Program-made: the position numbers and the translations under genes | The notes under the pieces: generated by a model | What the model saw: the letters and a program-made list of their open reading frames with translations, nothing else | What the model was told of the DNA's origin: nothing | Databases searched by the model: none | From: Daucus carota subsp. sativus | Lineage: Eukaryota > Streptophyta > Magnoliopsida > Apiales > Apiaceae | Length of the DNA stretch: 64,000 nucleotides | Reading direction: 5' to 3' | NCBI RefSeq assembly: GCF_001625215.2 | Contig: NC_030381.2 | Location: forward strand, 46,932,689 to 46,996,688 | Shown here: positions 28,560 through 64,000 of the stretch, one piece after another | Layout of the letters: each line of letters starts with the position of its first letter | Position numbering within the stretch: the stretch's first letter is position 1

Positions 28560-29480
28560 CTGTTGGGCCGTAGCGATTGTAGGGCTACGTATGATGGCCT
28601 TGTGGTAGAGTAGCCATAGCGAGCGAATGTGCGATGTATGTAGGCTCTCTGCTGTTGGGCCCTAGCGATTGTAGGGCTACGTATGATGGCCTTGTGGTAG
28701 AGTATCCATAGCGAGCGTGTAGAGTTGTAGCTATTGTAGGACCGTAGCTGTTGTATGGCTATATACGTAAGCCTTTTGGCGAATGAGCTTTATGTGTAAG
28801 GGGGCTCCTCGCTGTTGGGCCGTAGCTATTGTAGGGCTACTTATGTTGGCCTCACGCATAAGGTGGCTCTTAGATGTAGAGTTGTAGCTATTGTAGGGCC
28901 GTAGCTATTGTAGGGCTACTTATGTTGGCCATTTGGCGAATAAGCCCTGTGTGTAAGGGGGCTTTTCGCAGTTGGGCCGTAGCTATTGTAGGGCTACTTA
29001 TGTTGGCCATTTGGCGAATAAGCCCTGTGTGTAAGGGGGCTATTCGCAGTTGGGCCGTAGCTATTGTAGGGCTACTTATGTTGGCCATTTGGCGAATAAG
29101 CCCTGAGTTGTAAGGGGGCTCTTCGCAGTTGGGCCGTAGCTATTGTAGGGCTACTTATGTTGGCCATTTGGCGAATAAGCCCTGAGTTGTAAGGGGGCTC
29201 TTCGCAGTTGGGCCGTAGCTATTGTAGGGCTACTTATGTTGGCCATTTGGCGAATAAGCCCTGAGTTGTAAGGGGGCTCTTCGCAGTTGGGCCGTAGCTA
29301 TTGTAGGGCTACTTATGTTGGCCATTTGGCGAATAAGCCCTGAGTTGTAAGGGGGCTCTTCGCAGTTGGGCCGTAGCTATTGTAGGGCTACTTATGTTGG
29401 CCATTTGGCGAATAAGCCTTGAGTTGTAAGGGGGCTCTTCGCAGTTAGGCCGTAGCTATTGTAGGGCTACGTATGATGGC
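28560..29480. repeat. 79-bp tandem array inside the LTR retrotransposon
   Basis: GGGCCGTAGCTATTGTAGGG starts units at 28896, 28974, 29052, 29131, 29210, 29289 and 29368 and a variant (AGGCCGTAG) at 29447, so the period is 78-79 bp. Looser units with a longer step extend left to about 28560. Each unit also contains TTGGCGAATAAGCC. Internal tandem arrays next to the coding remnant are typical of Tat/Ogre-type elements and can seed satellite DNA. Confidence 0.9.
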
Positions 29481-29561
29481 CTTGTTTCATTCTGTGTTAG
29501 ATAACGCTTAAGGAAAATGTGAGATATATGGGGTGATAGAAAAAATTTACATACAGATGTG

Positions 29562-30117: not shown

Positions 30118-30135
30118 TCCCCGGCGGCGGCGCCA
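30118..30135 (-). other. primer-binding site
   Basis: TGGCGCCGCCGCCGGGGA on the minus strand, two nucleotides inside the right LTR. It resembles the TGGCGCCGTTGCCGGGG primer-binding site widespread in plant Tat/Ogre elements (tRNA-Arg is the primer reported for Ogre). It fixes the element's orientation. Confidence 0.75.
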
Positions 30136-30137
30136 TT

Positions 30138-30535
30138 TGATGGACTTGGTTTCTGTCCCTTTCTCTCTCTAGAATGTGAGAGCAATTCTTGTGTTTATGT
30201 ATATGTGTGTATTTTTGTGTCCCTCCCAGATGAAGATTAGGGTTTTTCCTTTTATATCTTCTTTTTGCTGAGTCATTCCTGCTTCTCTTCCCCTTGTGCC
30301 ATCTGGGTGACTCTACTACTTATAGAGCAGGTGACTGTTTGAAGCTACTATACAGGCAGGCAGGTGAGTCAACAGGGATTAGGGGGCAGGTGTTCCTACG
30401 GATGGAAGGCACGTGTCTTCGTCGTAGGCTAAGCAGGCGTGATAGGGATCGCAGGGTAGGCTGGGTTCCTAGGGGAAACGGCCTCAGACCCTACGGTCCT
30501 TTGGCTACTTATAAGGTTGATTTTTGAGTCTATCA
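30138..30535 (-). repeat. 5' LTR of the retrotransposon
   Basis: 398 bp, same sequence as 25562-25959 by eye. It adjoins the primer-binding site on the minus strand and the target duplication CCATC at 30536-30540. Confidence 0.95.
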
Positions 30536-41496: not shown

Positions 41497-42399
41497 CCTG
41501 TGGAAGAACACGTAAGTGTAGATGTCCGATATGTTAAGTTTGTTTCTGGCCAAGCCACTCATTTAATGTTTGAGATCAGTACAATGAAAATATTTTCCTT
41601 TATTGCAGATGAAATGTGCGATATACCATCCCTTTTTTCCTAGCTTTACAGAGTAGCATTAATACCTTCTTTGTTCCCGGATGTTTTTTTGTTCGTTCTT
41701 TAGAGATGGGTGCCCTCCCCAAGTGTACATAAACAATGACAAATAGTGTATAAACCATATACAATTGTTACCCCTCATGGTCATGTAACTAACAGAAGTA
41801 GAGATATTTTGTATCAGGTTCCTGCCTTTATTTTGTTTATACAAGATTATCATGTTATAATGTATCATGGTCCATTGCATGTATATTTATATTAAATGTT
41901 ACATTCTCAACCTCTTACTAAAATAACCAAGTGTTGAGGATAACAGCAGTTTGGTTGCCAATACTATGCTCCTGGAATTTCCCGGGAGGCTACAATAATA
42001 ACGTTTGTTACAGGTTCCTTCACATTTCTGGATACCTGGTCCTGGACGTTTTGTTTACAAACAATGGTATTTTTGGACGGCTGGATAGCCCAAGTTAGCA
42101 TAAACAGTTGCAGCCATGGTTACAAGAAACGGGAATCGGAGCTAGTCAGACAAAAACTGTTCAGGGATTAAATTGATTAATGGAGTTTAATCAGAACGAT
42201 TGATCGGACTATTAATGGGAATCAATTTTATATTACTTTTTAATTATACATATATAATATAGATTTATGATTTCATTATATAATTAAAAAAAACAAAATA
42301 TATATCAAAAAAACGCATGATGTATACTTTTTAAGTATTTTACATAATTATAATACATAATCTAATAAAAAGTTGTATATCGTACATGATTATATTTTT
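41497..42399. other. 3' UTR and intergenic, no gene seen
   Basis: This is the VPS3-like 3' UTR followed by AT-rich DNA up to the LINE target site. Short frames here overlap the last VPS3 exon or are AT-driven. Nothing else is supported. Confidence 0.5.
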
Positions 42400-44296
42400 A
42401 AGTAAAAGTCCAAACACAGCTGTAACAACTCGTGAGACAATTTGTGGAATTCTGGAAGTCAAGGAAAGTACAACACCTGGAAAGTATCTTGGATTACCAA
42501 TGTCAGTAGGACGAAGAAAGTGTGAAGTATTTAATTTCTTAACAGATCGAGTGCGACAGAAACTGCAGAACTGGCAAAACGCAAAAATATCCAAAGCTGG
42601 TAAATGTATATTGCTGAAGAGTGCTGCACAGTCCATTCCAAATTTTTGGATGAATCTTCTGCTTATTCCAGATGAAGTTTGTAAGGTGATCCAACGTCAG
42701 ATGAACAGATATTGGTGGGGTAATAGCAACAATAGTAGAGGGGTATGTTGGATGGCATGGGACAGGCTCTGTACTGTTAAAGAAGCAGGAGGGCTGGGAT
42801 TTAAAAACTTACGTCAATTCAACGTTGCAATGCTAGCAAAGCAAGGTTGGCGTTTTGTAAATAATTCAAATCCTCTTGTTACGAATATTATGAAGGCAAG
42901 ATATTTCCCAAACACGGATTTCTTGAATGCAACATTGGGAGACAATCCGAGTTATATGTGGAGAAGCATACTTTCAGCCAAAGATGTGATTAAACAAGGT
43001 TGTCGGAGAGGTATTGGTACAGGAGTGGACACAAATGTGTGGAATATACCCTGGCTACCTTGTAGTGATAATGGGTATCTTACATCAACTATGCAACCGG
43101 AATTAGCCCATATAAAAGTCTGTGACTTGATGGATACGCAGGAGAAAAAGTGGGACGACGACATACTAAGGGATCTTTTTAATGAAAGAGATGTTCAGCT
43201 GATACAAAATATTCCTCTGTCTTCACGAAGAACAAATGATACATGGATGTGGTTATTTGATGGAAATGGGGAGTTCACTGTTAGAAGTTGCTACCGTCAG
43301 TTGGTTGGGGAATGCAGTACAACAGATGCAACTTTCTGGAAGAAAATATGGAGCTTAGAACTGCCAGGGAAGGTTCGTTTCTTCTTATGGAGAACTTGTA
43401 GGTTCTGTTTACCAACGAATGTAGCACTCATAGAGAAAAGAGTGAATGTACCTAGTACATGTTCCTGGTGTCAAGTAGAGGATGAAACTGAGAAGCATAT
43501 TCTTTTTGAGTGTCAATTTGCAAAGGCGGCATGGGAATCCATAGGCCTGGCACAGTGGAGTCACACTATACCAGAAGAATCAATTTTAGATCACTTTAGA
43601 AGGCTGGTAACAAATGCGACAAAGGAACAGTGTGTTTTGGCAGCAAGTCTATGTTGGAGTCTATGGAATCGACGTAATAACTGGGTGTGGAATCGGATTG
43701 CAGCTTCTGTATTTGGAACAACAAGTGCAGCAAATAGTTTATTGGTGAGTTGGAATTTGGCTCATCTAAAACAGACTAGGAGCACTTCGGGAACAATGAG
43801 GACGAGTATACAGCGATGGCAGCCACCACAACCGCAGTGGGTGAAGATTAATATAGATGCAGCCATATTTACGGATTTGAACAGCATAGGTGTGGGTGGA
43901 GTAATCCGAGACGAGAGGGGTCAGTTTGTGAAGGCAATGTGCAAGCAGAAGCAAGGGACGTGGTCACCTCGAGAGGCTGAAGCACTAAGCTTTAGGGAGG
44001 TTCTGTCTTGGATGAAGGAACATAGTTTCACACGATGCGTCTTCGAAACAGATTCAAAATTGTTGGCAGATGCATGTAATGGTAACCCTGGTCGATCATA
44101 TTTTCATTCTATTGTTGGTGATTGTGTTGAGTTGATTAAGCAATTTGAAGATGTGCTAGTACGTTTCGTACCTAGGTCTGCGAATGAGGTCGCTCACTTG
44201 TTAGCTAGAGTGTCTCGTTCTATGTCAGATCTTAAGGAGTGGGATAGTGTTGCTCCCAACTTCCTATCAGATGTACTTTCAAGTGATTTGATTTAA
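42386..44296 (+). pseudogene. LINE ORF2 C-terminal part (RT end, zf-RVT, RNase H)
   Basis: A continuous 636-codon frame. From residue 9 it matches the C-terminal half of a plant non-LTR retrotransposon ORF2: the region after the RT palm (GKYLGLPMSVGRRK, NRYWWG), a zf-RVT domain at about 315-385 (FWKKIWSLELPGKVRFFLW, then CSWCQ and HILFEC), and an RVT_3-type RNase H at about 485-612 with NIDAA, REAEALSFRE, FETDSK and RSANEVAHLLAR. The catalytic YxDD part of RT, the endonuclease and ORF1 are missing, so it is 5'-truncated and inactive. No stop codons interrupt it, which suggests youth. The ATG at 42386 lies in host DNA, so any start there is accidental. Confidence 0.85.
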
Positions 44297-45394: not shown

Positions 45395-45782
45395 AATGAT
45401 TTAACTCTTTGTCAAATACTTTGAATTTATTTGCGTCTTTAATGATGTTCCCAATTAACTTAAATCTAAATAATATTTTGGTACTTTAATTTTATATTAT
45501 TTAAATATTTGAAACTTTTTTTTCATATAAACATATTTCAAATTAAAAGGCAGTTAACTATATTTTTTAAACATATAAAAAGGATGGTAAAATAATTTTA
45601 CACGAATATGAGAATATATGTGTAGTTTTAGTAAAACATAGTTGCTATATATTTTACTCCAAAAAAAAAAAGTCTCCATACTAATCATAATCTAATTACA
45701 TCCTATTTTATCAAAAAATATGTCATGTATAACTCTAAATTCAAAATGTTTTATTATAAGATGTTTATATTATAAGCCTCGG
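45395..45782 (+). repeat. Partial spacer copy at the left edge of the PMD array
   Basis: This block matches the array spacer at 48950-49210 and again at 49975-50030, for example ATTTAAATATTTGAAA, ATATGTCATGTATAACTCTA and TTTTATTATAAGATGT. The parts between are missing. It then joins directly to CGGCAGTTATGTCTACATGC, which starts the gene-bearing unit. So an earlier unit once lay upstream and was cut down by deletion. Confidence 0.7.
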
Positions 45783-45973
45783 CAGTTATGTCTACATGCA
45801 AAATCCCAGCAGATAGATACATTTCATATTTTGTATGCTTATGTTTATACATTCAATAAGTTACCATTTGACCCCAATTCAAACTTCACAACTTCAAAAA
45901 GCAAAACAAAGCTTCAAAAACCTTCACAAATCACAACATCAAACACCAGAAACAAGCTTCAACCTTTTCTGCA

Positions 45974-47818
45974 ATGGAGGCCGGTAACACATCTGCTGTT
46001 GTTGCTGCTGGAGATGCCCTTGTTGAACAAAGTGAAGAGGTGATGGTCCCAACTGGCGGGGGGAATCCAACATTAGGAATGGCCCATCTCATGAAACCCT
46101 TGGTTAGTGAGGACATTCTTTATTATCCTCCACCACCAACTGTACTGATAGCCTCAAACCCCAATTCTCAGAACTTGAAGAAATGGTGTTTAAAAGGGAG
46201 CAAAACAAGCCCCAAAGCAAGATGGAATCTTTGGGTGAATTCTTTGGAGCCGAGGTACGGAGAAATCTGGAGGAGAAGTGGGATCTACCAAGCAATCAAG
46301 GCCTCCACATATAGTGTCCCGAGGGACAAGATGTTGCTCTTGGGCTTTGCAGAGTTCTGGTGCTGTGATACCAATACTTTCGTTTTTCCTTGGGGTGAGG
46401 TAACCATAACTCTTGAAGATATTCTTCATTTAGGGTCTTTATCTGTTATAGGTTGCTCAATATTAACTCCCTGTGATAATGATGAATGTGGTCATGTCTA
46501 TAAGTGTCTGAGAAAAGAAATCAAGCAAGTTAAACGTGATCGTGGTGGATCTGTGACTCCTTATATGTGGATAGATCATTTTGCTGTGAATACTGGTAAG
46601 GAGGTCGAGCATGAAGCCTTTCTCTTATGTTGGCTGTCAAAATTTGTGTTTGTACGCACTCAGATACTCGTGCAGGATCTAAATGTGGCGATTCATTTGT
46701 CTAGAGGCACTAGGGTTGCCCTTGCCCCTGTTGTTCTTGCTTATATTTATAGAGATATGAGTGTGCTACATAATGCAATGGGTAAGCCTGTTGAATCAGG
46801 GTCTAGAATTGGTAAGAAGTTCTTTATGTGGCACTATGATTTAGTGCAGATGTGGGTTTGGGAGAGGTTTCCGGAAATGAGTCCAAATCCTAAAGTCATA
46901 GAAAGCGGAGACCCTAGAGCAGCACGGTGGAATGGAGTCACAAAGCTGAACTTAAGTGATTACAGGACGGCCTTAAACAATGACAGCATTTTATTATTTT
47001 GGCGCCCTTATTCTCTGATTCAGAGCGGAAGTATGTTGAGCAACTTGTACAAAGATAAAGAACAGTGGGTAGTGGTGGAGTCTGATGCAGTAGAAGCTTT
47101 TGCTCGATGCTTGATAGCTTCTAACTTGAATGGATTGGGTTATACTGAACCGTATTTTCCCCAAAGAGTTGCTAGGCAATTTGGATTGGACCAAGATATT
47201 CCTCTGCTTGCTAGGAATATTGCTTTGGGCAGTTATGACAGACCTATTAGAGGTGTAAAAGTCTATATACCACCTCGAGATTTTCAGTCTGATGTCACTG
47301 CCCGATACAGTTCTTGGTGGAAGGGCCTTTTGGCTGTCAATGAGAATTATGTGAACAACAGCAACCATGAACAACAACTTTTAGCGTTGCTTCCTTGTGA
47401 ACACCAGAGCAATGCAGAATCCTTCGAGGCTCCTGGTTCTCTTTCTGGTTGTGTTATGCAAAGCCTAGAAGCTGGTCCTTCAACTGCTCAACTTAATAGT
47501 CAATTGGGAAAACCTGATGGCTTTGATAAAAGGAATGATCCTGGCAATGATTCAGTATTGAGCAGTGATGATGATGTTGATGAAGATAGTCTTACAATTA
47601 CACAACTTCTCAGTCGAACTAGAAAGAGAGAGAATTTTGAGAATGCAAGGGATGTTGGTAATGAGCATGTACTGAATACTGGTACTTCAAATTTGATGGC
47701 ATTGGCAATATGCCCTGACACTACTAATGGCTTAACTTGCACAAGCGAACCCCTGGAAATGAGTGTGCCTTCTTTTAAAGGTAAGAAGAGTAAATTGTCA
47801 AGTGATAAGCAAGCATGA
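45974..47818 (+). CDS. Plant mobile domain (PMD) protein, copy 1
   Basis: A single-exon frame of 614 residues from MEAGNTSAVV. The PMD (PF10536) lies at about residues 45-400: IYQAIKASTYSVPRDKMLLL, FWCCDTNTFVFPWGEVTI, TLEDILHLGSLSVIG. Later blocks include HLSRGTRVALAPVVLAYIYR. The C-terminal 170 residues are Ser/Asp-rich (SSDDDVDEDSLTI) and end in a basic KGKKSKLSSDK. PMD proteins occur in retroelements and MULEs and as domesticated genes such as Arabidopsis MAIN and MAIL1, which affect transposon silencing and meristem integrity with PP7-like phosphatases. The role of this copy is not known. It has the longest unit, is most diverged from copies 2-4, and its sequence is open throughout. A downstream out-of-frame extension at 47813-48005 looks like a lost C-terminus. 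Confidence 0.85.
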   Translation: MEAGNTSAVVAAGDALVEQSEEVMVPTGGGNPTLGMAHLMKPLVSEDILYYPPPPTVLIASNPNSQNLKKWCLKGSKTSPKARWNLWVNSLEPRYGEIWRRSGIYQAIKASTYSVPRDKMLLLGFAEFWCCDTNTFVFPWGEVTITLEDILHLGSLSVIGCSILTPCDNDECGHVYKCLRKEIKQVKRDRGGSVTPYMWIDHFAVNTGKEVEHEAFLLCWLSKFVFVRTQILVQDLNVAIHLSRGTRVALAPVVLAYIYRDMSVLHNAMGKPVESGSRIGKKFFMWHYDLVQMWVWERFPEMSPNPKVIESGDPRAARWNGVTKLNLSDYRTALNNDSILLFWRPYSLIQSGSMLSNLYKDKEQWVVVESDAVEAFARCLIASNLNGLGYTEPYFPQRVARQFGLDQDIPLLARNIALGSYDRPIRGVKVYIPPRDFQSDVTARYSSWWKGLLAVNENYVNNSNHEQQLLALLPCEHQSNAESFEAPGSLSGCVMQSLEAGPSTAQLNSQLGKPDGFDKRNDPGNDSVLSSDDDVDEDSLTITQLLSRTRKRENFENARDVGNEHVLNTGTSNLMALAICPDTTNGLTCTSEPLEMSVPSFKGKKSKLSSDKQA

Positions 47819-48005
47819 GTTTGAAGAATATGCAGTTGTGAGTCTAGAGGATAACATTATTAATCTTGAAGAAGAACGCGGTGAGGAATCACAACACCTG
47901 GGATTCAAGGCTCGTGGTTGCAGGCTCGAAATGATTTTGGATAAGCATGGAGCAGTAGATCTGCCGGTGCTAGTTCTGCAGCCTGCAGGAAATCCTGAGA
48001 AGTAG
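47813..48005 (+). pseudogene. Out-of-frame C-terminal extension of PMD copy 1
   Basis: Directly after the copy 1 stop, the +1 frame stays open and reads HEFEEYAVVSLEDNIINLEE and then HLGFKARGCRLEMILDKHGA to a TAG at 48003-48005. It is acidic then basic, like a protein tail. A one-base change near 47811 would have shifted the main frame into the stop. In copies 2 and 3 the same extension is interrupted by TAG after the KAR codons. Splicing across the join is possible but no good intron is seen. Confidence 0.45.
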
Positions 48006-48761
48006 TTCTCATTATTAAATTACTTAGCAATTAGCATTCGTTACTTTATTGCTCTCTTGGTGTATTGTTTGGAATTTTAAAAACATTGTTTTTAAAAGAT
48101 TTTACTTTGCTTGTTTATGCTTGAGCATGACATCAAATTGTATCTTGCCTACATCTGGTTGAATTTAACACCCAACTTATACCATTAAGATTTCGGAATA
48201 ATAGTGACTTTTAAATATGTGATAAGGTCAATTGTGATGTTAGATTTCTGAACAATAATTTAATAATAACTTTTAAGTATGTGATAAGGTCAATTGTGAT
48301 GTTCTCCTTTCTTGTGGTGCAATTTGGATCGTTTCTAATATCTCTCATTTAATTTTTAGCTTATGTATCGGTTGGGAGTTTTTCCGGACGGTTAATGAAA
48401 GGGGTTTTGTTTGAGAAAAAAAAAACATTTACTTCAAGAATTTTTAAAAATTGCAGTAGTGTACTGATTTATTGTACCATATGTATTATTTTCATTTTTC
48501 GATTTTAAAGCCGAAACCGGTCTCATTAAAATCGAACCGAGATCTTTGAAAACGAAACCATAATGAAAGTTTAGTTGCGTTTGCGATTTTTAATTTTTCA
48601 AATCGAAGATCTATGGTTCCTATTTTACCCAAAAACCGAATCAAACTTACCCGTACTCTCCCCTAAATATATGTATATTTATAAAAAAATATACATATTT
48701 GTATTCAAAATAATACTTGATATTATTAAAATAATACCTGATATCATAATGTTGTATATAA

Positions 48762-48802
<41 letters not shown>

Positions 48803-51613
48803 ATATTTATCTAAAAATGTTATATTTTATTTTTCTTTATTTAATAAAATTTAAATAATTAATTAATTTTGCAAGAAAATATGACATGAAATATTTTGCA
48901 TGTGAAAATACTAAAAAGTTTTAAGTAAGTTAAGTGAAATTGTTTTTTGATTAACTCATTGTCAAACTCCTTGAATATATATTTATTCTTTATATCCTAA
49001 TGAACTTAATTTTAGATAATATTTTTTGTATTTTCAGTTTTATTTAAATATTTGAAATCTATTTTCATATAAATATATTTCAAATAAAAAGGTATTTAAA
49101 TTTATTTTCTTAACATACAAAAATGATGATGAAATATTTTTACATTATACAAGAATTTGAGAATATATATAATTTTAGTAAAACATAATTGTTATATCTT
49201 ACACCAAAAGACTTGGGGAATACATTATCAAAAAATATGTCATATATATTATAGGATATACTTTATTTTGAGATTGAATATACTTTAATACTAAATGTAT
49301 AATTTAATATTTTAATACATTTTTCAATATATATGTCATGTATTTATAGTCATCAATTCGTAACCTAATAATCTAATATAGTAATATATGTCCATCCTAA
49401 ACATAATACGCACACCGTAATTGACCCAATATATCATGTACATACCAGCCTTAAATCTGATGTACATCGTCTTAATTCTATTATATCAATTTATGTGTTC
49501 TCTTGCATATTTTTAATATTTTACTTCTTTAATATGAATGTCCTAATACATCATGCATCTCAGTGTAATTATATATCTTGGATGCTGAGCATCTGTTTCC
49601 TCTGAACTTTCATATATTTTTCATATATATAATTTTAGTAAAACATAATTGTTATATTTTTCAATATATATGTTATGTATCTGTAGTCATCAATTCGTAA
49701 CCTAATAACCTAATATATATACTATATGTCCATCCTAAACATAATATGCCCACCCTAATTAATCAAATATATCATGTATATACCAGTCTTAAATCTGATG
49801 TACATCGTCTTAATTCTATTATATCAATTTATGTGTTCTCTTGCATAATTTTAATATTTTACTTCTTTAAGTATGAATTTTATAACAGATATGTCCTAAT
49901 ACATCATGTATCTCAGTGTAATTATATATCTTGCAGGTGAGCATCTGTTTCTTCTGATGTTCTTTGTATTATCAAAAAATATGTCATGTATAACTCTAAA
50001 TTCAAAGTGTTTTATTATAAGATGTATAAATTAATATCTTATAATATTTTTCATATATCGCTATGCACGTTCTATCATCAATTCTGGCGCCATCATCAAT
50101 TCTAAACCTAAGATATCATCCTAAACTAATTTATGCGCCCCAAACCTAATATGTCATTCGACCCTAATATATGATTCTGTTTTAAACCTAATATATTATC
50201 CTAATCCTGCCATATCAATTTAATTATGTTCTCTCTAGAACATCAATGTGTATTTTATATCTTTAATATATATTCTATATTGTGATCGGTTCTAATACAT
50301 CATGTATCAGTACATATATGGATCTTGGATGCATAAGATTTGTTTTTCTAAACTTTCTTTCTTGCTCCTTTGTTTGCACTAAAGCACACTTTCTGACACT
50401 CTATATTCACCTTCAGACATATGTTACAACTTGTGCTTAGAAAAGTTTTTTTCAAAACGGTTTTTCGAAAAATCTTTTAAATTCTCTTCCAACCACCAAT
50501 TAACCAGTACGTATAGAAAAACGTAAAATATATTTCACATTATTTATACAATGGTATACAAATACATTCACATGATAAACCTAATTTCTTTGTAAGCCTC
50601 TAGTGGTTGCCCCAATAATTCTTGACCCAGAAACATGCAGGAGTATCCATATATGTCTTTTTTGACAAATACAAACAAAACTAATTAATTACTGCTAAAT
50701 TAATTAGCTAACAAATTTATTTTTATTTCATAAATGTAAACAAATAAATTATTCATTTCTGTATATTAAAAAACTTAAAATTCAATTCCTTTTATTAAAA
50801 GGTAGATATGTATCATTTTATTTCTTTAATATTATAAAAAAAAATATGAGAGATGCTAAAGAATCAAAAATATACCCCAAAATTTTTTGAGATCATCATT
50901 TAAATATTTAAAAACACACAAAAATTATCAATTATTAAAACACATCTTCATGCTAGTATTTGTGTGTATATATAATGGGTCCCACATAGTTATATATTTC
51001 TTCTGCATCTGTACATACGTACATATAAACACATACATATAAACAACAGTTGCAGAATCTCACATAATGAACTTACACCAAACCAGTGAAGGAAGAAATA
51101 ATAAATATAATTGGTCCCACATCCATTTCACGAAATAATTCATCACGTAAATACTGAATTTTATGAATTTAGCTTGATTACCTTAATTATACTAAAACTG
51201 TTCCAATTAAAATAAACAAAATTTACATATAAAATTTAGTCACAAGCACACAATACAAATTCAACGTTGATGTTAAAATAACATATAATATCTAGTTTGT
51301 TTTGTGAATTTAACACTTCTAGTTAATGCACCTAAAAAGTAAGATTATATAATTTCCAAACTATATATGTCCTTTTAATTTCCAAATGAAGAAGTTATAA
51401 ATTTAATTGGTCTGTATTTGTGAATTGTTTGGAACCTCTGATTAATGCACCTACAAACTAATATTGTATAATTTTCCAAACTGCAAACTGTATGTGTCCT
51501 TTTAATTCCTAGATGGAGAAGCCATAAATTAAATTAAAATGAAATTAATGTGAAAACGAGTAAAGCCAAATCAGTAAGCTGTAAGTTGGTTTCATGCACA
51601 TCACTGGCCTGGG
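48006..51613. repeat. Spacer of PMD unit 1
   Basis: AT-rich spacer homologous to the spacers of units 2 and 3. It contains an (AT)n tract at about 48765-48797 that is shortened in the others, and a 337-bp tandem duplication at about 49317-49990. No gene was seen; short frames are AT-driven. Confidence 0.8.
49317..49990. repeat. 337-bp tandem duplication in spacer 1
   Basis: CATCAATTCGTAACCTAATA starts at 49351 and again at 49688, with long shared sequence after each (for example ACATCGTCTTAATTCTATTA). Units 2 and 3 have this block once. The duplication accounts for most of the extra 392 bp of unit 1. Confidence 0.85.
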
Positions 51614-51811
51614 CAGTTATGTCTACATGCAAAATCCCAGCAGATAGATACATTTCATATTTTGTATGCTTATGTTTATACATTCAATAAGTTACCATTT
51701 GACCCCAATTCAAACTTCACAAATCACAACTTCAAAAAGCAAAACAAAGCTTCAAAAACCTTCACAAATCACAACATCAAACACCAGAAACAAGCTTCAA
51801 CCTTTTCTGCA

Positions 51812-53660
51812 ATGGAGGCCGGTAACACATCTGCTGTTGTTGCTGCTGGAGATGCCCTTGTTGAACAAAGTGAAGAGGTGATGGTCCCAACTGGCGGGGG
51901 GGAATCCAACATTAGGAATGGCCCATCTCATGAAACCCTTGGTTAGTGAGGACATTCTTTATTATCCTCCACCACCAACTGTACTGATAGCCTCAAACCC
52001 CAATTCTCAGAACTTGAAGAAATGGTGTTTAAAAGGGAGCAAAACAAGCCCCAAAGCAAGATGGAATCTTTGGGTGAATTCTTTGGAGCCGAGGTACGGA
52101 GAAATCTGGAGGAGAAGTGGGATCTACCAAGCAATCAAGGCCTCCACATATAGTGTCCCGAGGGACAAGATGTTGCTCTTGGGCTTTGCAGAGTTCTGGT
52201 GCTGTGATACCAATACTTTCGTTTTTCCTTGGGGTGAGGTAACCATAACTCTTGAAGATATTCTTCATTTAGGGTCTTTATCTGTTATAGGTTGCTCAAT
52301 ATTAACTCCCTTTGATAATGATGAATGTGGTCATGTTTATAACTGTTTGAGAAATGAAATCAAGCAAGTTAAACGTGATCATGGTGAATCTGTGACTCCT
52401 CATATGTGGATGGATCATTTTGTGATGAATCCTGGTAAGGAGGTAGAACATGAAGCCTTTCTTTTATGTTGGCTTTCTAAGTTTGTGTTTTTACGCACTC
52501 AGATACTAGTGCAGGATGTGAATGTGGCTATTCATTTGTCTAGGGGTACTAGGGTTGCCCTTGCCCCTGTCGTTCTTGCTTATATTTATAGAGATATGAG
52601 TGTGCTACATAATGCAATGGGTAAGCCTGTTGAATCAGGGTCTAGAATTGGTAAGAAGTTCGTTATGTGGCACTATGATTTAGTGCAGATGTGGGTTTGG
52701 GAGAGGTTTCCCGAAATGAGGCCAAATCCAAAAGTCATAGAAAGGGGAGACCCTAGAGCAGCAAGGTGGAATGGAGTCCCAAAGCTGAACTTAAGTGATT
52801 ACAGGACGGCCTTAAACAATGCCAGCATTTTATTATATTGGCGCCCTTATTCTCTGATTCAGAGCGAAAGTATGTTGAGCAACTTGTACAAAGATAAAGA
52901 ACAGTGGGTAGTGGTGGAGTCTGATGCAGTAGAAGCTTTTGCTCGATGCTTGAGAGCTTCTAACTTGAATGGATTAGGTTATACTGAACCGTATTTCCCC
53001 CAAAGAGTTGCTAGGCAATTTGGATTGGACCAAGATATTCCTCTGCTTGATAGGAATATTGCTTTGGGCAGTTATGACAGACCAATTAGAGGTGTAAGAG
53101 TCTATATACCACCTCGAGATTTTGAGTCTGATGTCACTGCCCGATACAATTCTTGGTGGAAGGGCCTTTTGGCTGTCAATGAGAATTATGTGGACAACAG
53201 CAACCATGAACAACAACTTTTAGCGTTGCTTCCTTGTGGACACCAGAGCAATGCAGAATCCTTCGCGGCTCCTGGTTCTCTTTCTGGTTGTGTTATGCAA
53301 AGCCTAGAAGCTGGTCCTTCAACTGCTCAACTTAATAGTCAATTGGGAAAACCTGATGGCTATGATAAAAGCTGGAATGGTCTTGGCAATGATCCAGCAT
53401 TGAGCAGTGATGATGATGTTGATGAAGATAGTCTTACAATTGCACAATATCTTAATCGATCAAGAAAGAGAGATGTTTTTGAGAATGCAAGGGATGTTGG
53501 TAATGAGCATGTACTGAATACTGGTACTTCAAATTTGATGGCATTGGCAATATGCCCTGACACTACTAATGGCTTAACTTGCACAAGCGAACCCCTGGAA
53601 ATGAGTGTGCCTTCTTTTAAAGGTAAGAAGAGTAAATTGTCAAGTGATAAGCAAGCATGA
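51812..53660 (+). pseudogene. PMD protein gene, copy 2, with a one-base frameshift
   Basis: The same gene as copy 3, but the G run at 51896-51902 has seven Gs where copies 1, 3 and 4 have six. This breaks the frame from MEAGNTSAVV after about 30 codons. The rest, from an internal ATG at 51918, stays open for 580 residues to the same stop and retains the whole PMD. Either translation starts at the internal ATG, or the copy is dead, or the extra G is a sequencing error in a homopolymer. Apart from the G run, no difference from copy 3 was noticed in the coding region. Confidence 0.8.
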
Positions 53661-56600
53661 GTTTGAAGAATATGCAGTTGTGAGTCTAGAGGATAACATT
53701 ATTAATCTTGAAGAACGCGGTGAGGAATCACAACACCTGGGATTCAAGGCTCGTTAGTTGCAGGCTCGAAATGATTTTGGATAAGCATGGAGCAGTAGAT
53801 CTGGTGCTAGTTCTGCAGGAAATCCTGAGAAGTAGTTCTCATCATTAAATTACTTAGCAATTAGCATTCGTTACTTTATTGCTCTCTTGGTGTAATTGTT
53901 TGGAATTTTAAAAACATTGTTTCTTGCTGCTACATCCGGTTGAATTTAGCACCCAACTTATACCAATTGTGACTTTTAAATATGTGATTAGGTCAATTGT
54001 GATGTTGGGATTTCTGAACAATAGTCTAATAATAACTTTTAAGTATGCGATGAGGTCAATTGTGATGTTCTGCTTTCTTGCACGTTGGTGCAATTTTGAT
54101 CGGTTCGAATATCTTTCATTTAATTGTATCGGTTGAGAGTTTTTCCGTCTGGTTAATGTAAGGGTTTTTTTTTTAGAAAAAAAAACATTTACTTCAAGGA
54201 CTTTTAGAAATTGCAGTAGTGTACTGATTTATTGTACCATATGTATTATTTTCAATTTTTCGATTTTAAAGCCGAAACCGGTCTTATTAAAATCGAACCG
54301 AGATCTTTGAAAACGAAACCAAACTAAAAGTTTAGTTGCGTTTACGATATTCGATTTTTCAAATCCAAGATCCATGGTTCCGATTTTACCCAAAAACCGA
54401 ATCAAACTTACCTGCGATCTCCCCTAAATATATGTATATTTATAAAAAAAATACATATTTGTATTTCAAATAATACTTGATATTATTAAAATAATACTTG
54501 ATATCATAATGTTGTATATAAATATAATACATATATAATTAATATTTATATAAAAATGTTATATTTTATTTTTCTTTATTTAATTTAATTTATATAATTA
54601 ATTAATTTTGCAAGAAAATATGACATGAAATATTTTGCATGTGAAAATACTCAAGTTTTAAGTAAGTTAAGTGAAATTGTTTTTTGATTAACTCATTGTC
54701 AAACTCCTTGAATAATTTTTTTTTCTTTATATCCTAATGAACTTTATTTTAGTTAATATTTTTTATATTTTTAGTTTTATTTAAATATTTGAAATCTATT
54801 TTTATATAAATATATTTCAAGTAAAAAGGTATTTAAATTTATTTTGTTAACATATAAAAATGATGATGAAAATTTTTTACATTATACAAGAATTTGAGAA
54901 TATATATGATTCTCGTAAAACATAATTGTTATATCTTACACGAAAAGAATTACGGAATACATTATCAAAAAATATGTCATATATATTATATGATATACTT
55001 TATTTTGAGATTGAATATACTTTAATACTAAATGTATAATTTAATATTCTATTATATTTTTCAATATATATGTCATGTATCTGTAGTCATCCATTCATAA
55101 CCTAATAACCTAATATATTAATATATGCCCATCCTAAGCATAATAAGCCCACCATAATTAACCCAATATATCATGTATATACCAGTCTTAAATCTGATGT
55201 ACATCATCTTAATTCTTTTATATCAATTTACGTGTTCTCTTGCATATTTTTAACATTTTACTTCTTTAATATGAATTCTATAACAGATATGTCCTAATAC
55301 ATCATGTATCTCAGTGTAATTATATATCTTGGATGCTGAGCATCTGTTTTTTCTGAACTAACTTTCTTTCTTTTGTGTTCTTTGTATTATCAAAAAATAT
55401 GTCATGTATAACTCTAAATTCAAAGTATTTTATTATAAGATGTATAAATTAATATCTTATAATATTTTTCATATATCGCTATGCACGTTCTATCATCAAT
55501 TCTGGCGCCATCAATAATTCTAAACCTAATATACCATCCTAAACTAATTTATGCGCCCCAAACCTAATATGTCATTCGACCCTAATATGATTCTGTTTTA
55601 AACCTAATATATTATCCTAATCCTGCTATATCAATTTATGTTCTCTCTAGAACATCAATGTGTATTTTATATCTTTAATATATATTCTATATTGTGATCG
55701 GTTCTAATACATCATGTATCAGTTTAATCGGACATATATGGATCTTGGATGCATAATATTTGTTTTTCTGAACTTTCTTTCTTGCTCATGTGTTTGCACT
55801 AAAGTGCAAACACACTTTCTGACACTCTATATATATTCACCTTCAGACATATGTTACAACTTGTGCTTAGAAAAGTTTTTTTCAAAACGGTTTTTAGAAA
55901 AATCTTTTAAATTCTCTACCAACTACCAACCAGCATGTATAGAAAAACGTAAAATATATTTCACATTATTTATACAATGGTATCCAAATACATTCACATG
56001 ATAAACCTAATTTCTTTGTAAGCCTCTGTTGGTTGCCCCGATAATTCTTGACCCAGAAACATGCAGGAGTATCCATATATGTCTTTTTTGACAAATACAA
56101 ACAAAACTAATTAATTGCTGTTAAATTAATTAGCTAACAAATTAATTTTTATTTCATTTAGACGGACTAAATGTAAATAAATAAAATTTTCATTTATGTA
56201 TATTTAAAAAACTTAAAATTCAATTCCTTTTATTAAAAGGTAGATATGTATCATTTTATTTCTTTAATATTATAAAAAAAATGTGAGAGATGCTAAAGAA
56301 TCAAAAATATACCCCAAAATTTTTTGAGATCATCATTTAAATATTTAAAAACACACAAAAATTATCAATTATTAAAACACATATTCATGCTAGTATTTGT
56401 GTGTATATATAATGGGTCCCACATAGTTATATACAGTATTTCTTCTGCATCTCTACATACATATAAACACATACATATAAACAACAGTTGCAGGATCTCA
56501 CATAATGAATTTACACCAAACCAGTGAAGGAAGAAATAATAAATATAATTGGTCCCACGTCCATTTCACGAAATAATTCCATAACGTAAATACTCAATTT

Positions 56601-57052
56601 TATGAATTTAGCTTGATTACCTTAATTATACTAAAACTGTTCCAATTAAAATAAACAAAATTTACATATAAAATTTAGTCACAAGCACACAATACAAATT
56701 CAACGTTGATGTTAAAATAACATATAATATCTAGTTTGTTTTGTGAATTTAACACTTCTAGTTAATGCACCTAAAAAGTAAGATTATATAATTTCCAAAC
56801 TATATATGTCCTTTTAATTTCCAAATGAAGAAGTTATAAATTTAATTGGTCTGTATTTGTGAATTGTTTGGAACCTCTGATTAATGCACCTACAAACTAA
56901 TATTGTATAATTTTCCAAACTGCAAACTGTATGTGTCCTTTTAATTCCTAGATGGAGAAGCCATAAATTAAATTAAAATGAAATTAATGTGAAAACGAGT
57001 AAAGCCAAATCAGTAAGCTGTAAGTTGGTTTCATGCACATCACTGGCCTGGG
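53661..57052. repeat. Spacer of PMD unit 2
   Basis: AT-rich, almost identical to the next spacer (59099-62489). It differs from spacer 1 by the single-copy 337-bp block and many small changes. No gene was seen. An inverted TTTGCACTAAAGTGCAAA lies near 55793-55810. Confidence 0.85.
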
Positions 57053-57104
57053 CAGTTATGTCTACATGCAAAATCCCAGCAGATAGATACATTTCATATT
57101 TTGT

Positions 57105-57320
57105 ATGCTTATGTTTATACATTCAATAAGTTACCATTTGACCCCAATTCAAACTTCACAAATCACAACTTCAAAAAGCAAAACAAAGCTTCAAAAACCT
57201 TCACAAATCACAACATCAAACACCAGAAACAAGCTTCAACCTTTTCTGCAATGGAGGCCGGTAACACATCTGCTGTTGTTGCTGCTGGAGATGCCCTTGT
57301 TGAACAAAGTGAAGAGGTGA
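57105..57320 (+). promoter_or_regulatory. Upstream ORF overlapping the PMD start (copy 3; also 51666 and 62542)
   Basis: An ATG 146 bp before the main ATG opens a 71-codon frame that runs past the main start in a different frame. Identical uORFs sit at 51666-51881 and 62542-62757. Copy 1 lacks 8 bp (AAATCACA) in the leader, so its uATG frame ends right after the main ATG. If the transcript begins upstream, this arrangement would reduce main-frame translation. The transcription start is unknown. Confidence 0.4.
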
Positions 57321-59098
57321 TGGTCCCAACTGGCGGGGGGAATCCAACATTAGGAATGGCCCATCTCATGAAACCCTTGGTTAGTGAGGACATTCTTTAT
57401 TATCCTCCACCACCAACTGTACTGATAGCCTCAAACCCCAATTCTCAGAACTTGAAGAAATGGTGTTTAAAAGGGAGCAAAACAAGCCCCAAAGCAAGAT
57501 GGAATCTTTGGGTGAATTCTTTGGAGCCGAGGTACGGAGAAATCTGGAGGAGAAGTGGGATCTACCAAGCAATCAAGGCCTCCACATATAGTGTCCCGAG
57601 GGACAAGATGTTGCTCTTGGGCTTTGCAGAGTTCTGGTGCTGTGATACCAATACTTTCGTTTTTCCTTGGGGTGAGGTAACCATAACTCTTGAAGATATT
57701 CTTCATTTAGGGTCTTTATCTGTTATAGGTTGCTCAATATTAACTCCCTTTGATAATGATGAATGTGGTCATGTTTATAACTGTTTGAGAAATGAAATCA
57801 AGCAAGTTAAACGTGATCATGGTGAATCTGTGACTCCTCATATGTGGATGGATCATTTTGTGATGAATCCTGGTAAGGAGGTAGAACATGAAGCCTTTCT
57901 TTTATGTTGGCTTTCTAAGTTTGTGTTTTTACGCACTCAGATACTAGTGCAGGATGTGAATGTGGCTATTCATTTGTCTAGGGGTACTAGGGTTGCCCTT
58001 GCCCCTGTCGTTCTTGCTTATATTTATAGAGATATGAGTGTGCTACATAATGCAATGGGTAAGCCTGTTGAATCAGGGTCTAGAATTGGTAAGAAGTTCG
58101 TTATGTGGCACTATGATTTAGTGCAGATGTGGGTTTGGGAGAGGTTTCCCGAAATGAGGCCAAATCCAAAAGTCATAGAAAGGGGAGACCCTAGAGCAGC
58201 AAGGTGGAATGGAGTCCCAAAGCTGAACTTAAGTGATTACAGGACGGCCTTAAACAATGCCAGCATTTTATTATATTGGCGCCCTTATTCTCTGATTCAG
58301 AGCGAAAGTATGTTGAGCAACTTGTACAAAGATAAAGAACAGTGGGTAGTGGTGGAGTCTGATGCAGTAGAAGCTTTTGCTCGATGCTTGAGAGCTTCTA
58401 ACTTGAATGGATTAGGTTATACTGAACCGTATTTCCCCCAAAGAGTTGCTAGGCAATTTGGATTGGACCAAGATATTCCTCTGCTTGATAGGAATATTGC
58501 TTTGGGCAGTTATGACAGACCAATTAGAGGTGTAAGAGTCTATATACCACCTCGAGATTTTGAGTCTGATGTCACTGCCCGATACAATTCTTGGTGGAAG
58601 GGCCTTTTGGCTGTCAATGAGAATTATGTGGACAACAGCAACCATGAACAACAACTTTTAGCGTTGCTTCCTTGTGGACACCAGAGCAATGCAGAATCCT
58701 TCGCGGCTCCTGGTTCTCTTTCTGGTTGTGTTATGCAAAGCCTAGAAGCTGGTCCTTCAACTGCTCAACTTAATAGTCAATTGGGAAAACCTGATGGCTA
58801 TGATAAAAGCTGGAATGGTCTTGGCAATGATCCAGCATTGAGCAGTGATGATGATGTTGATGAAGATAGTCTTACAATTGCACAATATCTTAATCGATCA
58901 AGAAAGAGAGATGTTTTTGAGAATGCAAGGGATGTTGGTAATGAGCATGTACTGAATACTGGTACTTCAAATTTGATGGCATTGGCAATATGCCCTGACA
59001 CTACTAATGGCTTAACTTGCACAAGCGAACCCCTGGAAATGAGTGTGCCTTCTTTTAAAGGTAAGAAGAGTAAATTGTCAAGTGATAAGCAAGCATGA
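57251..59098 (+). CDS. Plant mobile domain (PMD) protein, copy 3
   Basis: An intact single-exon frame of 615 residues from MEAGNTSAVV, the first ATG in frame (the frame is open upstream to 57101, but without an ATG). The domain layout matches copy 1: an Ala/Val/Glu-rich start, the PMD with RNEIKQVKRDHGESVTPHMW where copy 1 has a changed segment, and a Ser/Asp-rich tail ending KGKKSKLSSDKQA. The first 170 residues are the same as in copy 1; later residues differ at scattered sites. It is the best candidate for a working gene of the young subfamily. As for the other copies, a function in silencing or transcription is only a family-level guess. Confidence 0.87.
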   Translation: MEAGNTSAVVAAGDALVEQSEEVMVPTGGGNPTLGMAHLMKPLVSEDILYYPPPPTVLIASNPNSQNLKKWCLKGSKTSPKARWNLWVNSLEPRYGEIWRRSGIYQAIKASTYSVPRDKMLLLGFAEFWCCDTNTFVFPWGEVTITLEDILHLGSLSVIGCSILTPFDNDECGHVYNCLRNEIKQVKRDHGESVTPHMWMDHFVMNPGKEVEHEAFLLCWLSKFVFLRTQILVQDVNVAIHLSRGTRVALAPVVLAYIYRDMSVLHNAMGKPVESGSRIGKKFVMWHYDLVQMWVWERFPEMRPNPKVIERGDPRAARWNGVPKLNLSDYRTALNNASILLYWRPYSLIQSESMLSNLYKDKEQWVVVESDAVEAFARCLRASNLNGLGYTEPYFPQRVARQFGLDQDIPLLDRNIALGSYDRPIRGVRVYIPPRDFESDVTARYNSWWKGLLAVNENYVDNSNHEQQLLALLPCGHQSNAESFAAPGSLSGCVMQSLEAGPSTAQLNSQLGKPDGYDKSWNGLGNDPALSSDDDVDEDSLTIAQYLNRSRKRDVFENARDVGNEHVLNTGTSNLMALAICPDTTNGLTCTSEPLEMSVPSFKGKKSKLSSDKQA

Positions 59099-62000
59099 GT
59101 TTGAAGAATATGCAGTTGTGAGTCTAGAGGATAACATTATTAATCTTGAAGAACGCGGTGAGGAATCACAACACCTGGGATTCAAGGCTCGTTAGTTGCA
59201 GGCTCGAAATGATTTTGGATAAGCATGGAGCAGTAGATCTGGTGCTAGTTCTGCAGGAAATCCTGAGAAGTAGTTCTCATCATTAAATTACTTAGCAATT
59301 AGCATTCGTTACTTTATTGCTCTCTTGGTGTAATTGTTTGGAATTTTAAAAACATTGTTTCTTGCTGCTACATCCGGTTGAATTTAGCACCCAACTTATA
59401 CCAATTGTGACTTTTAAATATGTGATTAGGTCAATTGTGATGTTGGGATTTCTGAACAATAGTCTAATAATAACTTTTAAGTATGCGATGAGGTCAATTG
59501 TGATGTTCTGCTTTCTTGCACGTTGGTGCAATTTTGATCGGTTCGAATATCTTTCATTTAATTGTATCGGTTGAGAGTTTTTCCGTCTGGTTAATGTAAG
59601 GGTTTTTTTTTAGAAAAAAAAACATTTACTTCAAGGACTTTTAGAAATTGCAGTAGTGTACTGATTTATTGTACCATATGTATTATTTTCAATTTTTCGA
59701 TTTTAAAGCCGAAACCGGTCTTATTAAAATCGAACCGAGATCTTTGAAAACGAAACCAAACTAAAAGTTTAGTTGCGTTTACGATATTCGATTTTTCAAA
59801 TCCAAGATCCATGGTTCCGATTTTACCCAAAAACCGAATCAAACTTACCTGCGATCTCCCCTAAATATATGTATATTTATAAAAAAAATACATATTTGTA
59901 TTTCAAATAATACTTGATATTATTAAAATAATACTTGATATCATAATGTTGTATATAAATATAATACATATATAATTAATATTTATATAAAAATGTTATA
60001 TTTTATTTTTCTTTATTTAATTTAATTTATATAATTAATTAATTTTGCAAGAAAATATGACATGAAATATTTTGCATGTGAAAATACTCAAGTTTTAAGT
60101 AAGTTAAGTGAAATTGTTTTTTGATTAACTCATTGTCAAACTCCTTGAATAATTTTTTTTTCTTTATATCCTAATGAACTTTATTTTAGTTAATATTTTT
60201 TATATTTTTAGTTTTATTTAAATATTTGAAATCTATTTTTATATAAATATATTTCAAGTAAAAAGGTATTTAAATTTATTTTGTTAACATATAAAAATGA
60301 TGATGAAAATTTTTTACATTATACAAGAATTTGAGAATATATATGATTCTCGTAAAACATAATTGTTATATCTTACACGAAAAGAATTACGGAATACATT
60401 ATCAAAAAATATGTCATATATATTATATGATATACTTTATTTTGAGATTGAATATACTTTAATACTAAATGTATAATTTAATATTCTATTATATTTTTCA
60501 ATATATATGTCATGTATCTGTAGTCATCCATTCATAACCTAATAACCTAATATATTAATATATGCCCATCCTAAGCATAATAAGCCCACCATAATTAACC
60601 CAATATATCATGTATATACCAGTCTTAAATCTGATGTACATCATCTTAATTCTTTTATATCAATTTACGTGTTCTCTTGCATATTTTTAACATTTTACTT
60701 CTTTAATATGAATTCTATAACAGATATGTCCTAATACATCATGTATCTCAGTGTAATTATATATCTTGGATGCTGAGCATCTGTTTTTTCTGAACTAACT
60801 TTCTTTCTTTTGTGTTCTTTGTATTATCAAAAAATATGTCATGTATAACTCTAAATTCAAAGTATTTTATTATAAGATGTATAAATTAATATCTTATAAT
60901 ATTTTTCATATATCGCTATGCACGTTCTATCATCAATTCTGGCGCCATCAATAATTCTAAACCTAATATACCATCCTAAACTAATTTATGCGCCCCAAAC
61001 CTAATATGTCATTCGACCCTAATATGATTCTGTTTTAAACCTAATATATTATCCTAATCCTGCTATATCAATTTATGTTCTCTCTAGAACATCAATGTGT
61101 ATTTTATATCTTTAATATATATTCTATATTGTGATCGGTTCTAATACATCATGTATCAGTTTAATCGGACATATATGGATCTTGGATGCATAATATTTGT
61201 TTTTCTGAACTTTCTTTCTTGCTCATGTGTTTGCACTAAAGTGCAAACACACTTTCTGACACTCTATATATATTCACCTTCAGACATATGTTACAACTTG
61301 TGCTTAGAAAAGTTTTTTTCAAAACGGTTTTTAGAAAAATCTTTTAAATTCTCTACCAACTACCAACCAGCATGTATAGAAAAACGTAAAATATATTTCA
61401 CATTATTTATACAATGGTATCCAAATACATTCACATGATAAACCTAATTTCTTTGTAAGCCTCTGTTGGTTGCCCCGATAATTCTTGACCCAGAAACATG
61501 CAGGAGTATCCATATATGTCTTTTTTGACAAATACAAACAAAACTAATTAATTGCTGTTAAATTAATTAGCTAACAAATTAATTTTTATTTCATTTAGAC
61601 GGACTAAATGTAAATAAATAAAATTTTCATTTATGTATATTTAAAAAACTTAAAATTCAATTCCTTTTATTAAAAGGTAGATATGTATCATTTTATTTCT
61701 TTAATATTATAAAAAAAATGTGAGAGATGCTAAAGAATCAAAAATATACCCCAAAATTTTTTGAGATCATCATTTAAATATTTAAAAACACACAAAAATT
61801 ATCAATTATTAAAACACATATTCATGCTAGTATTTGTGTGTATATATAATGGGTCCCACATAGTTATATACAGTATTTCTTCTGCATCTCTACATACATA
61901 TAAACACATACATATAAACAACAGTTGCAGGATCTCACATAATGAATTTACACCAAACCAGTGAAGGAAGAAATAATAAATATAATTGGTCCCACGTCCA

Positions 62001-62489
62001 TTTCACGAAATAATTCCATAACGTAAATACTCAATTTTATGAATTTAGCTTGATTACCTTAATTATACTAAAACTGTTCCAATTAAAATAAACAAAATTT
62101 ACATATAAAATTTAGTCACAAGCACACAATACAAATTCAACGTTGATGTTAAAATAACATATAATATCTAGTTTGTTTTGTGAATTTAACACTTCTAGTT
62201 AATGCACCTAAAAAGTAAGATTATATAATTTCCAAACTATATATGTCCTTTTAATTTCCAAATGAAGAAGTTATAAATTTAATTGGTCTGTATTTGTGAA
62301 TTGTTTGGAACCTCTGATTAATGCACCTACAAACTAATATTGTATAATTTTCCAAACTGCAAACTGTATGTGTCCTTTTAATTCCTAGATGGAGAAGCCA
62401 TAAATTAAATTAAAATGAAATTAATGTGAAAACGAGTAAAGCCAAATCAGTAAGCTGTAAGTTGGTTTCATGCACATCACTGGCCTGGG
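59099..62489. repeat. Spacer of PMD unit 3
   Basis: Nearly the same as spacer 2. The only differences noticed are in mononucleotide runs (for example the T/A run near 59604-59622 is 2 bases shorter). No gene was seen. Confidence 0.85.
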
Positions 62490-62687
62490 CAGTTATGTCT
62501 ACATGCAAAATCCCAGCAGATAGATACATTTCATATTTTGTATGCTTATGTTTATACATTCAATAAGTTACCATTTGACCCCAATTCAAACTTCACAAAT
62601 CACAACTTCAAAAAGCAAAACAAAGCTTCAAAAACCTTCACAAATCACAACATCAAACACCAGAAACAAGCTTCAACCTTTTCTGCA

Positions 62688-64000
62688 ATGGAGGCCGGTA
62701 ACACATCTGCTGTTGTTGCTGCTGGAGATGCCCTTGTTGAACAAAGTGAAGAGGTGATGGTCCCAACTGGCGGGGGGAATCCAACATTAGGAATGGCCCA
62801 TCTCATGAAACCCTTGGTTAGTGAGGACATTCTTTATTATCCTCCACCACCAACTGTACTGATAGCCTCAAACCCCAATTCTCAGAACTTGAAGAAATGG
62901 TGTTTAAAAGGGAGCAAAACAAGCCCCAAAGCAAGATGGAATCTTTGGGTGAATTCTTTGGAGCCGAGGTACGGAGAAATCTGGAGGAGAAGTGGGATCT
63001 ACCAAGCAATCAAGGCCTCCACATATAGTGTCCCGAGGGACAAGATGTTGCTCTTGGGCTTTGCAGAGTTCTGGTGCTGTGATACCAATACTTTCGTTTT
63101 TCCTTGGGGTGAGGTAACCATAACTCTTGAAGATATTCTTCATTTAGGGTCTTTATCTGTTATAGGTTGCTCAATATTAACTCCCTTTGATAATGATGAA
63201 TGTGGTCATGTTTATAACTGTTTGAGAAATGAAATCAAGCAAGTTAAACGTGATCATGGTGAATCTGTGACTCCTCATATGTGGATGGATCATTTTGTGA
63301 TGAATCCTGGTAAGGAGGTAGAACATGAAGCCTTTCTTTTATGTTGGCTTTCTAAGTTTGTGTTTTTACGCACTCAGATACTAGTGCAGGATGTGAATGT
63401 GGCTATTCATTTGTCTAGGGGTACTAGGGTTGCCCTTGCCCCTGTCGTTCTTGCTTATATTTATAGAGATATGAGTGTGCTACATAATGCAATGGGTAAG
63501 CCTGTTGAATCAGGGTCTAGAATTGGTAAGAAGTTCGTTATGTGGCACTATGATTTAGTGCAGATGTGGGTTTGGGAGAGGTTTCCCGAAATGAGGCCAA
63601 ATCCAAAAGTCATAGAAAGGGGAGACCCTAGAGCAGCAAGGTGGAATGGAGTCCCAAAGCTGAACTTAAGTGATTACAGGATGGCCTTAAACAATGCCAG
63701 CATTTTATTATATTGGCGCCCTTATTCTCTGATTCAGAGCGAAAGTATGTTGAGCAACTTGTACAAAGATAAAGAACAGTGGGTAGTGGTGGAGTCTGAT
63801 GCAGTAGAAGCTTTTGCTCGATGCTTGAGAGCTTCTAACTTGAATGGATTAGGTTATACTGAACCGTATTTCCCCCAAAGAGTTGCTAGGCAATTTGGAT
63901 TGGACCAAGATATTCCTCTGCTTGATAGGAATATTGCTTTGGGCAGTTATGACAGACCAATTAGAGGTGTAAGAGTCTATATACCACCTCGAGATTTTGA
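62688..64000 (+). CDS. Plant mobile domain (PMD) protein, copy 4, cut by the window end
   Basis: It starts at MEAGNTSAVV and stays open for 437 codons to the window edge, ending in the VYIPPRDF region. The G run near the start has six Gs, so the frame is intact. One coding difference from copy 3 was noticed: an ACG to ATG change near 63681 (Thr to Met in SDYRTAL). The missing C-terminus lies outside the window. Confidence 0.85.
   Translation, partial: MEAGNTSAVVAAGDALVEQSEEVMVPTGGGNPTLGMAHLMKPLVSEDILYYPPPPTVLIASNPNSQNLKKWCLKGSKTSPKARWNLWVNSLEPRYGEIWRRSGIYQAIKASTYSVPRDKMLLLGFAEFWCCDTNTFVFPWGEVTITLEDILHLGSLSVIGCSILTPFDNDECGHVYNCLRNEIKQVKRDHGESVTPHMWMDHFVMNPGKEVEHEAFLLCWLSKFVFLRTQILVQDVNVAIHLSRGTRVALAPVVLAYIYRDMSVLHNAMGKPVESGSRIGKKFVMWHYDLVQMWVWERFPEMRPNPKVIERGDPRAARWNGVPKLNLSDYRMALNNASILLYWRPYSLIQSESMLSNLYKDKEQWVVVESDAVEAFARCLRASNLNGLGYTEPYFPQRVARQFGLDQDIPLLDRNIALGSYDRPIRGVRVYIPPRDF

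Follow-up and report, generated by a model that had tools for sequence, protein, structure and literature searches.

A tandem cluster of plant mobile domain genes in carrot, very probably shaped by unequal crossing-over and gene conversion

Plant mobile domain (PMD) proteins of the genic PMD-B type are stand-alone PMDs encoded by ordinary genes across the angiosperms, as described in PMC5418596. In Arabidopsis, the proteins MAIN and MAIL1 function in gene expression and in silencing (PMC5418596, PMC7156037). The number of PMD genes varies sharply between related plants; in one orthogroup, for example, two roses have 0 and 48 genes (PMC8213826), and PMD expansions are described among rose, tea, Oryza granulata, cupuassu, and Datura (PMC8213826, PMC6123737, PMC11152179, PMC7806989, PMC10673657). 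Expansions in particular lineages are already known; as far as the text of these reports is accessible, they give counts or enrichment, whereas the subject here is the recombination history of one array. A tandem array of nuclear regulator genes in concerted evolution is ELOA3 of primates (PMC10664989). The stretch analyzed here, called the window, comprises 64,000 bp of the carrot genome (Daucus carota subsp. sativus; C1:46932689-46996688 within a 441-Mb assembly of 11 contigs) and contains an array of PMD genes. These genes very probably form a tandem cluster of host genes that grows by unequal crossing-over and conversion.

The initial annotation had described at least four head-to-tail units of 5.44 to 5.83 kb, and comparison of the window with itself and alignment of the units returned exactly this arrangement, with the fourth unit cut by the window end (Table 1). 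Units U2 and U3 aligned with 5437 matches, no substitution, and two one-base insertions or deletions (indels), both in homopolymers, G7/G6 at position 51896 and T10/T9 at 54165. The part of U4 inside the window differed from U3 by 1 substitution in 1518, and 211 of the 5368 columns in which U1 and U3 could be aligned held a substitution (96.1% identity). The array does leave the window, as had also been claimed: the rest of U4, which is complete there with 615 amino acids (aa), is followed by one older PMD gene, U5 (match at C1:47000418-47002187; 78% protein identity; 86% nucleotide identity over the first 2 kb), after which the array ends, and the stretch up to C1:47024700 yielded no additional copy. 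In total, the cluster comprises the five genes U1 to U5 in about 24 kb. Arabidopsis also possesses a PMD gene cluster, on chromosome 1.

All four open reading frames (ORFs) of the window matched the Pfam family PF10536 with 271.5 to 287.3 bits and an E value of 1.5e-80 or better, and U5 matched with 275.6 bits, compared to a curated cut-off of 34.9 bits, which agrees with the family assignment made initially. Profile positions 1 to 347 were covered unbroken in three of these ORFs and positions 1 to 293 in the cut fourth. A full-length PMD gene in each unit, as first annotated, was present in U1, U3, and U4 (614 to 615 aa, U4 being completed outside of the window) but not in U2 as assembled: an extra G at position 51896 leads to a frameshift that puts the codons upstream of Met36 in another frame, and the open frame restarts at this Met36.

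Evaluation of U2 and U3 needs to consider the quality of the assembly. Both may be one unit counted twice or two haplotypes placed end to end, so that the true array would contain four genes, and the complete lack of substitutions over 5437 bp with G7/G6 and T10/T9 as sole differences would agree with such an artefact. The window contains no N, however, and U4 carries the same head as U3, as crossing-over predicts. Moreover, U1, U4, and U5 can be told apart by their sequences, and the tandem duplication is therefore real whatever U2 and U3 are. An artefact seems rather unlikely.

The traces of recombination are found at the unit junctions and in U4. The alignment of U1 with U3 contains two runs without any substitution, one of 692 aligned columns at the head of the unit and one of 450 at its tail (gaps ignored, with one 7-bp indel inside the 692-column run), and the longest substitution-free run in 2000 shuffles of the 211 substitutions was 297. 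Since the tail of one unit adjoins the head of the next, the two runs are one homogenised stretch around the junction. Compared to U3, U4 had a single substitution up to base 1658 and then 15 over the following 650 bases (16 over 2318 alignable bases), and past these its spacer aligned to U3 only in short pieces. The near-identity of units 2 to 4 including the spacer, which had been stated for all three, is thus that of U2 with U3 and of the first 1658 bases of U4, and it does not extend to the remainder of U4. Six of the 15 differences between U4 and U3 matched U5 only, three matched U1 and U5, and six were private. Judged from this pattern, U4 is a hybrid with a crossover-like break, as would be left by a crossover inside the U4 gene.

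The oldest units are located at the edges of the cluster (U1 with 96% and U5 with 86% nucleotide identity), which forms an age gradient from the edge to the centre. Near-identical central units, older edges, and tracts of conversion or crossover, the marks of a concerted tandem gene array, were all found. The homogenised junction tracts and the substitution-free pair U2/U3 also bear out the earlier statement that the array expanded or was homogenised very recently. With assumed substitution rates, the separation of U2 and U3 should be at most about 18 to 39 thousand years old and that of U1 and U3 about 1.8 to 3.9 million years, and conversion between the units would let these dates come out too young. 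In the proposed mechanism, a PMD gene uninterrupted over the domain would have been duplicated in tandem to the host cluster U1 to U5, and unequal crossing-over, which we infer, together with gene conversion between misaligned units would lengthen and homogenise the cluster. Unequal crossing-over with conversion would explain the junction tracts, the break in U4, the older edge units, and a diverged piece of spacer in the left flank (Table 1), which is perhaps the remnant of an earlier unit.

The amplified genes are not identical in architecture to their relatives. Six of the seven other frames compared, those of U5, two on contig C8, one on C5, and two on C4, end with a tail of the type ARIxRLExIF, and the seventh, a frame of 837 aa on C4, shows faint resemblance to this tail only. 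In contrast, U1, U3, and U4 contain an in-frame TGA where U5 reads on, so that the tail is missing, and U2 ends at the same residue (stops equivalent to that of U3 at 47816-47818 in U1 and 53658-53660 in U2). A relic of the tail past the stop continues in frame for about 45 codons in U4, is shifted in U1, and is shifted and interrupted in U3. For U1 to U4, the predicted product is shorter and lacks the C-terminal tail that U5 retains. The shared stop suggests an origin before the split of U1 to U4, unless it was spread by conversion, and since it is common to all four units, the truncated form was the one that was amplified. This amplification of a tail-less PMD form is what is new here and mildly surprising; among the titles and abstracts listed from the open-access literature, none dealt with homogenisation in a PMD array or with a PMD form lacking its tail. 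A tail-less form just multiplied beside a full-length sister gene represents a natural experiment on the domain acting alone. Apart from this, the biology is most likely ordinary, a standard case of tandem gene evolution.

To judge the coding capacity, synonymous and replacement changes were compared. Between U1 and U3, the PMD contained 21 synonymous and 24 replacement changes (dN/dS of 0.29, Fisher p 1e-4), and the C-terminal region contained 2 and 17, respectively (ratio 2.36, p 0.39), so that neutrality was not rejected for this region; the difference between both regions had a p of 0.009. Positive selection on the C terminus was not accepted, the ratio of 2.36 not being significant. The ratio for the whole frame was 0.48 (bootstrap 0.29 to 0.81), that for the PMD of U3 and U5 was 0.37, and PMD ratios were 0.29 to 0.38 in 5 of 6 pairs within the array and 0.29 to 0.51 in 20 of 21 pairs among seven genes, where defined. 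These PMD ratios show purifying selection on the PMD, and judged by them the truncated genes continue to resemble protein-coding genes. The alternative would be a decaying cluster of pseudogenes multiplied by chance, with which the shared premature stop, the decayed tail, the lack of detectable constraint in the C-terminal region, the frameshift in U2, and the broken relatives elsewhere in the genome would be in agreement (shorter and mostly broken ones on C2, C4, and C7, with 71 of 358 candidates scored). Such decay is quite unlikely in view of the PMD ratios within the array and of U1, U3, and U4 being open over 614 to 615 codons.

A growing cluster of host genes nevertheless has to be reconciled with several observations that weigh against it. 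The only differences between U2 and U3 are in the lengths of homopolymers, as would also result from an assembly duplication, and U2 is frameshifted. No constraint is detectable in the C-terminal region between U1 and U3, so that each protein may be decaying in part. The sequence upstream of the ATG that U1 has in common with the other units is only 198 bp long, and a fragment of a long interspersed nuclear element (LINE) adjoins the array. If the host genes are expressed, as we infer, each intact copy would most likely make a PMD protein, and the copy number would set the dosage. By virtue of the shared domain, the PMD of the array may act in transcription or transposon silencing like MAIN and MAIL1.

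The position of the array among the PMDs of the genome was evaluated with a tree of 22 PMDs, a chosen subset of at least 158 PMD matches, from which U2 was omitted as near-identical. U1, U3, U4, and U5 were part of a 13-row clade (support 100/100) together with genes on C4, C5, and C8. This clade was about 16 to 24% identical over the PMD to the 9 other rows of the tree, which are dispersed copies from nine of the ten loci L019 to L028, the copy of L022 being unused. Among the frames scanned at these ten loci, which were a part of all frames, Mutator-type domains were present at three (L019, L022, and L027); L025 had only a SWIM finger, L020 had a tnp2-type transposase, and no such domain was seen at the remaining ones. 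The initial annotation had placed PMD genes between transposons and silencing factors, which does not hold for the array, its clade being far from the dispersed rows.

Compared to the described systems, the array clade would fit PMD-B of Ikeda et al., a name assigned by elimination within this genome. Like PMD-B, it consists of stand-alone genic PMDs, with a common tail in 6 of 7 open frames outside U1 to U4, but U1 to U4 are without this tail. The proteins MAIN, MAIL1, and MAIL2 (PMD-C) share the Pfam domain with the array, a likeness at the level of the domain. With ELOA3, the cluster shares the state of a homogenised tandem gene array; the protein is unrelated, however, and ELOA3 genes are retrogenes, whereas nearly all rows of the array clade are uninterrupted over the PMD. 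The full PMD profile was present in one open frame in 12 of the 13 clade rows, the thirteenth being a broken copy of 406 aa on C4 (break at profile position 245). An uninterrupted domain is accordingly the rule in this clade. The array genes, which had been labelled intronless, are indeed uninterrupted over the PMD, but this is not special to the array, and retroposition as its origin found no support for the same reason. PF10536 had no match in 14 control genomes, and no relatives were found in viral and prokaryote contigs. An AlphaFold2 model of the window's own copies reached a mean pLDDT of 29.6 and was rejected as a basis for fold searching. Among solved structures, none matched U3 alone up to an E value of 1, and the two best with a 7-row profile had E values of 0.65 and 1.1. 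Two loci on C4, L013 (C4:30578043-30581414) and L014 (C4:30582275-30585991), contain single open frames of 1124 and 1239 aa with two consecutive PMDs each, as if tandem genes had been fused in frame.

PMDs are often transposon-borne (PMC5418596, PMC9289625), which raises the question of whether the unit may be a Gypsy or Mutator element with a PMD that was inserted here or that spread in tandem. This genome contains numerous near-identical PMD copies at dispersed sites, Mutator-type domains are near 3 of 10 loci, and the LINE fragment lies next to the array. On the other hand, 10 of the 13 stop-to-stop frames of at least 50 aa in the U3 spacer were scanned and yielded no Pfam match, and no match to a reverse transcriptase or integrase, as needed for a Gypsy-borne PMD (PMD-A), or to a transposase, as expected for a Mutator-like element (MULE). 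Terminal inverted repeats would likewise be expected of a MULE, but the left flank and the right side of the array formed no inverted repeat with each other, and inverted repeats within the unit were short. With 40 of 146 candidates scored, long spacer matches occurred only at the array locus, elsewhere as pieces of at most about 280 bp, and the tree groups the array with PMD genes that are not dispersed. Based on the frames and candidates covered, a transposon as the unit is barely plausible and was disfavored against host genes. Within the spacer, positions 59431-59582 are a small dispersed repeat of about 75 to 150 bp with 74 to 84% identity on all nine large contigs, which accounted for 28 of 44 matches, and a sequence of about 410 bp is directly repeated (60398-60816 and 60823-61231, 67% identity).

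A fragment of a PMD (approximately residues 237 to 330, 73% identical to U3) occurs in at least 37 copies with 94 to 100% identity, all on contig C2, with 40 of 126 candidates scored. The sites are at 0.59, 3.4, 5.7-5.8, 11.4, and 13.57-13.99 Mb (L037, L038, and L039) in both orientations, and three older copies (86 to 87%) are at 42.6 Mb. Several copies are spaced by about 5.9 kb in tandem and are antisense to other open frames of their amplicon, two of which were scanned and had no Pfam match.

In tea, 175 PHAS loci are at PMD genes, and their phased small interfering RNAs (phasiRNAs) hit other PMD genes (PMC10673657). The carrot array may similarly yield mainly small RNAs, by which PMD genes would be regulated in cis and in trans, rather than protein. 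The near-identical antisense fragments on C2 are in line with this, as are the exact matches to U5 of 41 of the 365 21-mers of one copy. Only 4 of 365, however, match U3 and U4, and none match U1; the arms of inverted repeats in the unit did not exceed 31 nt; and the PMD frame is constrained, which weighs against a role as RNA only because such a role would not need constraint. This makes a small-RNA locus very improbable compared with protein-coding host genes. As a further and distinctly improbable possibility, the truncated U1 to U4, with the constrained PMD but without the tail, might compete in multiple copies, as dominant-negative or decoy proteins, with U5 and the other full-length paralogues on C8, C5, and C4, with recombination tuning the copy number and the C2 antisense fragments serving as a small-RNA brake on this family.

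Table 1. Coordinates of the array features and the adjacent elements in the window
Feature	Position	Strand	Remarks
LINE fragment	42386..44296		zf-RVT and RNase H, then short A-run; between VPS39-like gene and array
Left flank, diverged partial copy of array spacer	45401..45772	+	75% over about 250 bp, 94% over last 65 bp
Unit 1 (U1), PMD gene and spacer, older unit	45776..51606	+	5831 bp; self-comparison, alignment
U1 PMD gene	45974..47818	+	614 aa, PF10536 E 4e-84
Unit 2 (U2)	51607..57045	+	5439 bp; zero substitutions compared to U3
U2 PMD open frame	51918..53660	+	580 aa, PF10536 E 2.3e-85
Unit 3 (U3)	57046..62482	+	5437 bp; self-comparison, alignment
U3 PMD gene	57251..59098	+	615 aa, PF10536 E 2.7e-85
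U3 premature TGA and decayed relic of the tail still encoded by U5	59096..59270	+	
U3 spacer	59099..62482	+	3384 bp
Unit 4 (U4), cut by window end	62483..64000	+	diverges from U3 after about 1.65 kb, beyond window
U4 PMD gene	62688..64000	+	first 437 codons in window, PF10536 E 1.5e-80

The surroundings of the array are a gene neighbourhood with some transposon remains. To the left, the VPS39-like gene is accompanied by a heavy-metal P-type ATPase and a frame for ribosomal L18; two further frames matched a beta-helix of the pectin-enzyme type, one of these below the Pfam cut-off. No Rfam families or tRNAs were found in the window. A direct repeat of 405 bp with 99.75% identity is located at 25555-25959 and 30131-30535, 4.6 kb from start to start. 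No target-site duplication was seen around this pair in the flanks inspected. Enclosing two minisatellites (27358-27605 and 28542-29481), the repeat pair looks like a young insertion of the retrotransposon type.

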